Source: Coriobacteriia bacterium (GTDB lineage: Bacteria; Actinomycetota; Coriobacteriia; Anaerosomatales; Anaerosomataceae). Taken from it: 32,468 nucleotides of DNA. A program made the position numbers and the translations under genes. Under the pieces are notes generated by a model, which searched no databases, was not told the DNA's origin, and worked only from the letters and a program-made list of their open reading frames with translations. The stretch is taken from NCBI GenBank assembly GCA_026416035.1, contig JAOAFY010000011.1, forward strand, positions 1 through 32,468, given 5' to 3'. Positions 24,467-30,396 of this stretch are shown here, in pieces; the first letter of the stretch is position 1, and each line of letters begins with the position of its first letter.

Positions 24467-24679
24467 GGTTGCCCTCCCGCACAGCCTCTTGAAAGCCCTC
24501 GGGTTCCCAGTCTACCGCACGAGCGCCGAACACAGCCGCATCGCGTGGACATTGCTCTGGCGGCGTGCGGTCTCCACCCGGCCTCGACGCCTCTGTGCGA
24601 AAGCGTTCTGGCACGGTACCCTTGTGACATCGAACCGGGGCGCTCGGTTCCGAGGGCGCCTGAGCAGCGAGGAGCGCAC
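24467..24679. other. Divergent intergenic region
   Basis: 213 bases between nadE (-) and the thioredoxin-like lipoprotein gene (+). It must hold promoters in both directions. A TAGACT hexamer (24509-24514, minus) and a weaker TACCCT (about 24613-24618, plus) are the only -10-like elements seen, neither with a convincing -35. No ORF or RNA gene recognised. Confidence 0.5.
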
Positions 24680-25054
24680 GTGAGACGAGCTGTAACGGCC
24701 TTGTGCATCGCCTCGATCGCAGCGGCTCTCTTCGGTTGCGCGCGCACGACCGACGACGCCAGGATCCCCACCGCCGGCAAACCCGTCCTTGTGGAGCTGT
24801 ACACCGACTGGTGACCTTCGTGCAAGGCAGTCAAGCCTGTGGTCGACAGGCTTCGAGCCGAATACCAGGACACCATCGAGTTCCGTCTGTACGATGTGGA
24901 CACCGACGAGGAAGGTCGACGCATCGCAGACGAACTGGGCGCGCAGTACGTCCCGACGTTCGTCTTTGTGAACTCCGACGGCACCGTCTTGCACATGGAA
25001 GCAGGCGCCCTTCCTGAGAAGCGGATCCGCGAGAAGCTCGATGCGCTAAGGTAG
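24680..25054 (+). CDS. Thioredoxin-fold lipoprotein with in-frame UGA (putative selenoprotein, UxxC)
   Basis: 124 residues if UGA at 24812-24814 is read as selenocysteine. GTG start at 24680 lies five bases after AGGAG. The N-terminus is a lipoprotein signal (RRAVTALCIASIAAALFGC), with Cys20 the probable lipidation site, so the protein would be membrane-anchored outside the cytoplasm. The thioredoxin fold follows: KPVLVELYTDW, Sec45, PSCK (UPSC in place of CxxC), DVDTDEEGRRIADELG, then the cis-Pro loop YVPTFVFVNSDG. The frame is open from GTG to UGA and from UGA to TAG, and the homology continues smoothly across the codon. A perfect hairpin with a GGUC apical loop follows at 24833-24853. A nonsense mutation or sequencing error (TGC to TGA) is the alternative, but would not explain the hairpin. 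Confidence 0.85.
24812..24814 (+). other. In-frame UGA, probable selenocysteine codon
   Basis: The UGA replaces the first Cys codon of the thioredoxin CxxC motif (context DW-UGA-PSCK). Position 45 of the predicted protein. Confidence 0.8.
24833..24853 (+). promoter_or_regulatory. Bacterial SECIS-like hairpin
   Basis: AAGCCUGU-GGUCG-ACAGGCUU: eight perfect base pairs closing a loop that begins GGUC, the same apical tetranucleotide as the E. coli fdhF SECIS recognised by SelB. The loop starts 26 bases after the UGA, within the range tolerated for bacterial SECIS elements. It lies inside the coding sequence, as bacterial SECIS elements must. Confidence 0.8.
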
Positions 25055-27014: not shown

Positions 27015-27668
27015 ATGAACGAGATCCAGACTCCGAACGGCTACCAGTTCTCGATCGCGGCCAAGATCTACCTATGCTCCGACCTTCTCTTGCCGCAAGC
27101 AGGGATGATGTTCTCGTACCCCTCGCCTGCCGGGAAGTCCATCGACGTCCGCACGCTCGCCAAGGGCATCTTCGGGTGCACATTGGATTGGCTGGAGCGC
27201 AACGGATTCGTGCAGCTGTGGCAGGAAGAACGCCGCGTCGGGCTGGCGAAGGCGCAGCTGATCTGCGTCCGTGCGGTCTACTCCGGCGCTCCGGGATTCG
27301 CCGGCAAGCTCCTCGAAGCGACCCGCTGGCAGGACACCGACTTCATGACGATGTGCATGCGGATGCTTCCGCGGACCCAGGCTCCGTTCATCGACTTCTG
27401 CGACCGCGTGCCGTACGAGTTCGAGGAGGCCGGCATCCTCACGCGCAGCGGGTACGCGGCCCATGGGAACGTCTGGAACACCGAGTGGTTCCAGTACCTG
27501 CACGACGCCTTCTATCCAGAAGCATACGAGTCGTGGATGACGGCGCACGCGCGCCCGGACTGGGACCTGATCGACCGCAACGTCATGCTCGCCGTCGCGC
27601 AAAGGCAGCACACCCCGGAGGAGACCGACGCGTGGTTCGTGTGGCACATCGGAGGCGGCGAGAAGTGA
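27015..27668 (+). CDS. Protein of unknown function between two DUF2207-related genes
   Basis: 217 residues, not recognised. Soluble and rich in aromatic residues and Met (GMMFSYPSPAGKS, DTDFMTMCMRMLP, NVWNTEWFQYLHDAFYP), with several Cys not arranged as a known cluster. The segment DVRTLAKGIFGCTLDWLERNGFVQL looks like a helical DNA- or lipid-binding element; a distant GPP34-like similarity crossed my mind but cannot be supported. ATG follows AAGGGGG. It overlaps the next gene by four bases (GTGA), so the two are translated together. Confidence 0.75.
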   Translation: MNEIQTPNGYQFSIAAKIYLCSDLLLPQAGMMFSYPSPAGKSIDVRTLAKGIFGCTLDWLERNGFVQLWQEERRVGLAKAQLICVRAVYSGAPGFAGKLLEATRWQDTDFMTMCMRMLPRTQAPFIDFCDRVPYEFEEAGILTRSGYAAHGNVWNTEWFQYLHDAFYPEAYESWMTAHARPDWDLIDRNVMLAVAQRQHTPEETDAWFVWHIGGGEK

Positions 27669-28330: not shown

Positions 28331-29171
28331 GCAGCGCCGAACCGGAGCCGTGAACGGCCTCAGCGAGCGCGGTCACGAACGCGTGCACCGCTTCCGGGTC
28401 TGCCTGGCGGCGCACCACGGCGCTCCCCACGATCACGCCATCGGCAAGGTCAGCGACCTCGGCGGCCTGCGAGGGCGTGGAGATCCCGAAGCCGACGGCC
28501 ACCGGCAGGTCGGTGACGGCGCGCAGACGTGCGACCAGTTCGCGCACCCCGTCGGCGAGCCGGTCCCGCTCGCCGGTGACGCCGAGCGTGCTTACACAGT
28601 ACACGAAGCCCGAGGATGCCTTCGCCAGCGCCTGCAGCCGCTCAGGCGTCGAAGTAGGCGCCGCGAGGAACACGGTGTCCAGGCCATGTGATGCTGCGAG
28701 CCACGGCCGGGCGGCCTCGACCGGCATGTCAGGCACGATGACGCCGGCGATGCCAGCGCCCCGCATTCGCTCCGCCGCAGCAGCTAGCCCGAGACGCATC
28801 AGCGGATTGAGGTAGGTCATCAGCACGATGGGCGGAGCGCCCGCGCCGAGCGCGCTTCGCAGCTTCGCCGCGAGGTCGATGGTCTCCGTGAGCCCGAAGC
28901 CGCCCTCGCGTGCACACGCGACCCGCGCTGCGTCCGCAATCACCGGCCCGTCGGCGACCGGGTCGCCGTACGGCACGCCGAGCTCGATCAGGTCAGCGCC
29001 TCCTTCGGCCGCGGCGACGAGCGAGGTGAGCGAAGTCGGCGGATCCGGATACCCGGCCATCAAGTAGACGATGAGCGCTGGTCGCCCACGCTGGAAAGCC
29101 GCGGAGATCGCCGATGCGGCACGCGCACCGGCGCCGTCTGCACCGAGCCGCACCTGCTGCTCAGCCGCCAA
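28308..29171 (-). CDS. trpA: Tryptophan synthase alpha chain
   Basis: 287-residue TIM-barrel lyase that cleaves indole-3-glycerol phosphate to indole and glyceraldehyde 3-phosphate. Seen: the catalytic Glu in LIELGVPYGDP and Asp in ADGP, VIVPDMPVE, FLAAPTSTPERL, YCVSTLGVTGER and the phosphate loop VGFGISTP, VGSAVVR. The start is uncertain: TTG 29169-29171 is chosen because GGGAGG precedes it by six bases and it overlaps the trpB stop. GTG at 29151-29153 is the alternative, with no good ribosome site. Last gene of the trp operon. Confidence 0.93.
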   Translation of the reverse strand: MAAEQQVRLGADGAGARAASAISAAFQRGRPALIVYLMAGYPDPPTSLTSLVAAAEGGADLIELGVPYGDPVADGPVIADAARVACAREGGFGLTETIDLAAKLRSALGAGAPPIVLMTYLNPLMRLGLAAAAERMRGAGIAGVIVPDMPVEAARPWLAASHGLDTVFLAAPTSTPERLQALAKASSGFVYCVSTLGVTGERDRLADGVRELVARLRAVTDLPVAVGFGISTPSQAAEVADLADGVIVGSAVVRRQADPEAVHAFVTALAEAVHGSGSALPSAPQAP

Positions 29172-30396
29172 GACCCGCCTCCCGCACGATGTCCATGTCC
29201 TTGTCACCACGGCCGCTCACGTTGACGAGCACGCTCGCTTCGGGGCCGAGCTCGGCAGCCAACCGCGGCAGCATCGCGAGCGCGTGCGCTGACTCGATGG
29301 CCGGAATGATGCCTTCTGTGCGCGCCAGCAGCGCGAACGCGTCGAGCGCCTCGCGGTCGGTCACGGCCTCGTACCGCACTAGGCCCGTGTCTTTCAGGTA
29401 GCTGTGCTCCGGGCCGACGCCAGGATAGTCGAGCCCTGCCGAGATCGAGTACGCCTCCTTCGGATTGCCCGCCTCGTCTTGCAGCAGGTAGCTGTAGAAC
29501 CCGTGCAGGACGCCGGGCGTCCCCTTCGTGAGCGCCGCGCCGTGCTTGTCGGTCTCAAGGCCGAGGCCTGCCGCCTCTGCGCCGACGAGCAGCGGTCGCC
29601 TGTCTGCCGGGACGTCACGCAGGAAGGGATAGAAGATGCCGATCGCGTTCGAACCGCCACCAACGCACGCAACCACGGCATCCGGCATGTCCGCCCCCTT
29701 CGCACGCAGCTGGGCGATCGCCTCCTCGCCGATGACCTTCTGGAAGTGCCGCACGATGAGCGGGTACGGATGCGGTCCGACCGCAGAGCCCAGCACGTAG
29801 AAGGTGTCTTCGACGCGCTCGACCCAGTGCCGGAGCGCAGCCGTCACCGCGTCCGCGAGCGTCCCCGTCCCATCCGAGATGGGCACCACTTCGGCACCCA
29901 GCAGGCGCATCTTGTACACGTTGAGCGCCTGACGACGGATGTCTTCCGTGCCCATGAAGATGGAGCACTCCAGCCCCATGAGGGCGGCGGTCGTGGCAGT
30001 CGCCACCCCGTGCTGGCCTGCTCCGGTCTCCGCAATCACCCGCCGCTTGCCCATCCGCTTCGCGGGCAGGCACTGTCCGATCGTGTTGATGATCGTGGGG
30101 GCGCCGGGGGGGTTGAGGTCCTCTCGCTTCAGCCATACGGTGCCCAGTCCGACCTCTGACGCCAACCGGTCCGCCTGGTACAGCGGCGATGGCCGCCCCA
30201 CGTAGTCCGCAAGCAGCGCGTCCAGCTCGGCGGAGAAGGACGCGTCGGCCTGGGCGTCTTCGAAAGCGCGAGCGAGCTCCTCGAGCGCAGGCATGACCGT
30301 CTCTGGAACGAAGGTTCCTCCGTATGGGCCGAAGAACCCTTGCGCGTCGGGGCTCGAGTACGCCTCCTCAGCAGACGGCAGCAGCGAACCTGGCAT
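29161..30396 (-). CDS. trpB: Tryptophan synthase beta chain lacking the PLP lysine
   Basis: 411-residue canonical TrpB1, normally making tryptophan from indole and serine with PLP. Most signatures are present: FGPYGGTFVPE, AETGAGQHGVATAT, GGGSNAIG and HSYLKDTG. The PLP-binding segment, normally NHTGAHKINN, reads NPPGAPTIIN (residues 95-104), so the Schiff-base Lys (position 101) is Thr and neighbouring conserved His, Thr and Asn are also changed. Five single-base differences (four A-to-C, one A-to-T in coding sense) within 24 bases would explain it, in a G-rich run. Either a sequencing/assembly artefact or a real loss of PLP anchoring. It lies between trpF and trpA. Confidence 0.9.
   Translation of the reverse strand: MPGSLLPSAEEAYSSPDAQGFFGPYGGTFVPETVMPALEELARAFEDAQADASFSAELDALLADYVGRPSPLYQADRLASEVGLGTVWLKREDLNPPGAPTIINTIGQCLPAKRMGKRRVIAETGAGQHGVATATTAALMGLECSIFMGTEDIRRQALNVYKMRLLGAEVVPISDGTGTLADAVTAALRHWVERVEDTFYVLGSAVGPHPYPLIVRHFQKVIGEEAIAQLRAKGADMPDAVVACVGGGSNAIGIFYPFLRDVPADRRPLLVGAEAAGLGLETDKHGAALTKGTPGVLHGFYSYLLQDEAGNPKEAYSISAGLDYPGVGPEHSYLKDTGLVRYEAVTDREALDAFALLARTEGIIPAIESAHALAMLPRLAAELGPEASVLVNVSGRGDKDMDIVREAGLGG

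Follow-up and report, generated by a model that had tools for sequence, protein, structure and literature searches.

Selenocysteine (Sec) thioredoxins with the Trx domain PF00085 and a UxxC motif are listed as experimentally verified selenoproteins (PMC13188914, PMC9312934). A predicted Sec thiol:disulfide interchange protein (PF13098, UxxC) and DsbA-like and DsbG-like Sec proteins are also catalogued (PMC13188914, PMC1794560). Selenoproteins are named by domain and motif (PMC9312934), and the protein described here would fall under Sec-thioredoxin. This family is already known. The part not found described is the anchored and rhodanese-fused architectures present in Anaerosomatales and other Actinomycetota, for which no description was found in the catalogues and papers searched (most subscription journals lay outside the search).

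The protein is encoded in the window, by which is meant the whole stretch of 32,468 nt that was analysed. By domain and motif it resembles bacterial Sec thioredoxin, with the same domain, the same UxxC position, a single putative Sec and an apparently SECIS-directed codon, but it differs in having a lipobox and in having paralogues with a membrane anchor and a rhodanese domain, and its score with the thioredoxin equivalog TIGR01068 was 59.4 bits, under the cut-off of 96.8. With the Sec interchange, DsbA-like and DsbG-like proteins it shares a Sec in a thioredoxin fold of a usually extracytoplasmic kind; however, its best Pfam match was PF00085 (57.1 bits against a cut-off of 23.5) with PF13098 second, and no DsbA or DsbG match was found. 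ResA, TlpA, DsbE (CcmG) and Bacteroides fragilis TrxP (3hxs) are similar in thioredoxin fold and probable location, and TrxP is 32-34% identical to the window protein over the structural match. Unlike in these proteins, Sec would replace Cys in the window protein, and the DsbE (34.8 of 123) and ResA (29 of 170) models were under their NCBIfam cut-offs. SaoT and TsoB are likewise thioredoxin-like selenoproteins, and in the rhodanese/DsbD-like TsoB a rhodanese domain is also linked to one of thioredoxin type, but the scores of the window family were far under both cut-offs (SaoT, NF040730, 19.9 of 65; TsoB, NF045694, 22-36 of 805). Overall, no NCBIfam model reached its cut-off for either the short or the rhodanese-fused form. 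The AlphaFold2 model showed a thioredoxin fold with a mean pLDDT of 89 (about 97-98 over the domain), and Foldseek matched this predicted model with solved thioredoxins.

The in-frame UGA codon and its homologues

The features of the gene, all on the + strand, are as follows.

24669..24674, + strand: likely Shine-Dalgarno sequence GAGGAG, 5 nt upstream of the GTG, from sequence reading alone
24680..25054, + strand: selenoprotein gene for a 124-aa thioredoxin-fold protein with GTG start, TAG stop and in-frame UGA at codon 45, from translation with TGA=U, Pfam PF00085 (2e-15) and a TGA-bearing orthologue
24680..24739, + strand: signal peptide and lipobox L17-F18-G19-C20 (LFGC) with predicted lipidated Cys20, read by eye and pattern and from the lipoboxes of relatives
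24812..24814, + strand: UGA, putative selenocysteine 45, first position of the U-P-S-C redox motif, from the alignment of homologues with only TGA, TGC or TGT
24821..24823, + strand: Cys48, resolving cysteine of UPSC, Cys in 117 of 117 homologues and invariant in alignment A2
24833..24853, + strand: SECIS stem-loop with an 8-bp stem and a 5-nt GGUCG loop starting 19 nt past the UGA, from covariation, a synonymous-codon null and bSECIS constraints
24953..24955, + strand: Pro92, presumed cis-proline (YVPTF) facing the active site, invariant in A2, with the cis conformation taken from the family

Translation with TGA=U produced ...ELYTDW-U-PSCKAVKPVVDRL... around the codon, and the frame is terminated by the TAG at 25052-25054. 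Matches from 298 genomes of the class, extra loci and further contig matches gave 117 distinct homologous sequences. Homologues with a single in-frame TGA were found throughout the order of the window among the 298 class genomes, and a phylum-wide search found TGA homologues outside the class in other Actinomycetota. The first-pass annotation had placed an in-frame UGA at the first CxxC position with the frame conserved on both sides, and this was borne out by sequence reading and by 85 other distinct sequences. It had also proposed a check for Cys or Sec at position 45, and here the homologues had only TGA (86, that of the window included), TGC (20) or TGT (11), while the second CxxC cysteine was found in every one. 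An alignment of 62 sequences read through the UGA showed that positions 45, 48, Pro92 and Gly109 were invariant. An orthologue with 60% identity in another genus of the family (G025) also has the TGA, at the same locus. The homologue of Coriobacteriaceae bacterium EMTCatB1 (L049) was identical in sequence and position to the match in G003, which belongs to the genus of the window. One homologue (L129; G107:C17:4786-5106) has an extra in-frame stop near the Sec codon (one TGA and one TAG), which could be error or decay.

The UGA would be called a stop by standard annotation, and it could be a true stop, produced by sequencing error or nonsense mutation in a broken gene. The source assembly is a draft of 115 contigs, and unusual substitutions clustered in trpB (within about 30010-30129) may be a sign of errors or decay in this region. 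However, the same TGA is found in the 85 other distinct sequences from genomes that were assembled separately, the region past the UGA is under purifying selection in comparison with the nearest orthologue L020 (pS 0.63, pN 0.19), and the SECIS element covaries. The order-wide conservation of the TGA refutes a broken gene in practice, and its probability is negligible. Dozens of related bacteria, most of them uncultured, carry this hidden gene.

An open and conserved frame on either side of the UGA would also be expected if the codon was decoded as an ordinary amino acid by code reassignment or readthrough. This reading is highly improbable and was rejected, as the UGA aligns with Cys only, Sec machinery and a SECIS are present, and UGA is a terminator in other genes of the family. 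Several homologous genes, L020 included, use UGA both as Sec codon and as terminator, which shows that UGA is not simply reassigned. The UGA is almost certainly read as Sec, a reading for which the support is about as good as sequence by itself can give. These genes add a widespread selenoprotein group in a mostly uncultured order, and gene callers would split or drop them.

All four genes that the first-pass annotation named for a search, selA, selB, selC and selD, are present in the genome of the window (G000; 115 contigs, 92% complete). The tRNA-Sec scored 74 bits and was called SeC with anticodon TCA by ARAGORN. Matches were found for selA (E 5e-158), selB (3e-116, above the cut-off) and selD (2e-110), which lie close together on contig 18 (L078). 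In addition, selD is itself a UGA gene, with an in-frame UGA in STKSGUAAK at the Sec position, in agreement with UxxK, the motif given for Sec in SelD (PMC9312934). UGA is therefore very probably decoded as Sec elsewhere in the organism too. Among genomes, selA co-occurred positively with the TGA gene (48 of 60 genomes with it against 94 of 238), although the association is confounded by lineage and incomplete assemblies. Most of the 12 genomes that carried a TGA homologue and had no selA match are incomplete or fragmented; G047 and G051 are 96-98% complete and had neither a selA nor a tRNA-Sec match. A selB-like fragment was found at a contig end in G047, and no selB match was found in G051 at 1e-40.

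The stem-loop downstream of the UGA codon

Direct reading showed the hairpin AAGCCUGU-GGUCG-ACAGGCUU at 24833-24853, with the loop beginning 26 nt past the UGA. The perfect 8-bp hairpin described in the first-pass annotation is found in the window; among homologues, however, the outermost A-U pair (often with the next) is not conserved, and the core is six to seven bp. Folding of 24812-24866 recovered the 8-bp stem, and the overall fold energy of this region was ordinary (z = -1.66 against shuffles). A stem of this kind with 8 bp occurred near 3 of the 647 TGAs on both strands of the window, and one of at least 7 bp near 12. The hairpin alone is therefore weak evidence, but it is raised above chance because the TGA, the two-sided frame and the stem recur in the 85 other distinct sequences.

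With the register held fixed, a mean of 6.53 Watson-Crick pairs out of 8 was found in the Sec genes, against 4.68 (sd 0.11) in 1000 draws in which synonymous codons were redrawn and the protein sequence was kept. In the same test the Cys homologues were at the null, with 2.90 pairs against 3.11 after redrawing. The difference in best local hairpin energy between Sec and Cys genes was modest (p 0.006), and the fixed-register test was far sharper. The loop was GGUCG in 62 of the 86 TGA genes, and the Pro codon 53 matched the Arg or Gly codon 57 in 81 of them. The pairs were CCT-AGG (Arg) in 47, CCC-GGG (Gly) in 31 and CCG-CGG (Arg) in 3, and mixtures were almost absent. At this codon pair, where the SECIS stem crosses the gene, the synonymous codon used for Pro follows the identity of its partner, Arg or Gly, a clear example of constraint on a protein by an RNA signal.

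Compensatory changes were found in five of the eight stem pairs among 39 chosen sequences, with a covariation score of 0.307, above all shuffles (0.128), and RNAalifold returned the inner six stem pairs unprompted. The covariation is partly shared by descent, and relatedness inflates the pair counts. On the best protein tree, built with the hairpin codons excluded, the trait changed about 10-11 times, with only two independent pairs on well-supported branches, a count that is underpowered. Stem pairs were kept in this register in the four loci read outside the class, with seven of eight in L171 and L173, five in L172 and two in L170.

The SECIS loop of E. coli fdhF begins with GGUC. The window hairpin is similar in lying closely downstream of the UGA and in its loop start, but differs in having a 5-nt GGUCG loop and a stem of 7-8 bp lying across the codons for KPVVDRL. 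A search of 24700-25000 in Rfam with E up to 10 gave no match. The bSECIS model has an apical loop of 3-9 nt with a G in the first two positions, an upper stem of 4-16 bp and a loop 16-37 nt past the UGA (PMC13188914). A search of 24812-24870 for a bacterial SECIS had been suggested, and the window hairpin, with its 5-nt GGUCG loop, 8 bp and 26 nt, agrees with these published constraints, in addition to the covariation of its stem.

Export, gene architecture and possible function

The lipoprotein signal in the first-pass annotation held up, as the lipobox LFGC with Cys20 was read directly, by eye and pattern, and short-form relatives have LAGC, LGGC, VAGC or LAAC in the corresponding position. 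The protein is very probably exported, and a lipid probably anchors it to the outer side of the cytoplasmic membrane. Alternatively, it may stay on the cytoplasmic side, with the N-terminal hydrophobic stretch being a mere membrane anchor or the result of a mis-called putative start. LspA was not found in the 92% complete assembly, and LFGC is imperfect, with a Phe at -2 that is not ideal; this reading is nevertheless unlikely, as standard lipoboxes follow immediately on a signal-peptide-like stretch in the short-form relatives at this locus. Taken jointly, the window gene very probably encodes a Sec-decoded and exported thioredoxin. If the location is right, selenium chemistry would take place at the outer surface of a cell that probably has a single membrane. 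The earlier statement that this is an unusual place for a Sec redox enzyme was overstated. Selenium thioredoxins are established and Sec thiol:disulfide interchange, DsbA-like and DsbG-like proteins are catalogued (PMC13188914, PMC9312934, PMC1794560), and an extracytoplasmic location is therefore not in itself unusual for a thioredoxin-fold protein with Sec.

Two forms were found among the homologues. The short form, found beside nadE, consists of a signal-peptide-like stretch, a lipobox and the thioredoxin domain; in the other, a membrane anchor or lipobox is followed by rhodanese and then by the UPxC thioredoxin. Of the 86 TGA genes, 40 were classed as rhodanese fusions by a pattern-based classifier, and several of those it missed are visibly fusions. 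The genome of the window has a second Sec-thioredoxin gene of this kind (G000:C37:36224-36538; L077:7361-8542), with a UPTC motif behind a membrane anchor and rhodanese domain. Neighbour clustering showed that about a dozen short forms adjoin nadE, several of which are also near trpA and DUF2207 genes. The window gene lies between nadE and DUF2207, as does the orthologue in G025. No adjacent redox partner gene was found by all-against-all neighbour clustering, in which spurious antisense frames of high-GC DNA made up many of the clusters.

Sec decoding, the thioredoxin fold and a conserved SECIS are well supported. Beyond these, we infer lipidation, the direction of electron flow, the CcdA partnership, the substrates and the reduction of extracytoplasmic disulfides. 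In the proposed mechanism, SelB and Sec-tRNA(Sec) would decode the UGA at codon 45, guided by the stem-loop that starts 19 nt downstream. The product would have a thioredoxin fold of the ordinary type, with the presumed cis-Pro92, except that its redox motif would be U-P-S-C. In exported proteins, disulfides or other forms of oxidised sulfur would be attacked by Sec45, and the resulting selenenylsulfide would be resolved by Cys48. Electrons would most likely be cytoplasmic and be passed through a CcdA/DsbD-type membrane protein, for which the genome of the window has two candidates, the DsbD_TM proteins at C47 and C88. This role as a CcdA-fed reductase is somewhat favoured.

The UPxC thioredoxin is fused to rhodanese in many relatives and in the second copy in the genome of the window, and because of these fusions, sulfur-transfer chemistry has to be considered, in which the Sec thioredoxin would be an extracellular oxidase or sulfur-transfer partner and not a CcdA-fed reductase. 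In that case the rhodanese-fused paralogues would point to persulfide or sulfane-sulfur chemistry. This is a rather improbable role, as rhodanese is absent from the short form in the window, DsbD_TM proteins are present in the genome and a low-potential selenolate is better suited to reduction than to oxidation. For the reductase, cytochrome c maturation is a possible use, given that a multiheme cytochrome-like frame with many CxxCH-like motifs adjoins the tRNA-Sec gene (L001). More tentatively, Anaerosomatales and some other Actinomycetota may have a selenium redox system outside the cytoplasm that has gone unrecognised. Its components would be short Sec-thioredoxin lipoproteins encoded beside nadE and membrane-anchored rhodanese-Sec-thioredoxin fusions, both SECIS-encoded, and the two might jointly act on disulfides or sulfane sulfur beyond the membrane.

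A 217-aa frame at 27015-27668 of the window, adjoining DUF2207, had no Pfam match, and similar frames were found near the gene in relatives. Finally, the substitutions in trpB (29161-30396, - strand) turn the conserved NHTGAHKINN into NPPGAPTIIN and remove the catalytic lysine motif of the tryptophan synthase PLP site, by assembly error or decay.
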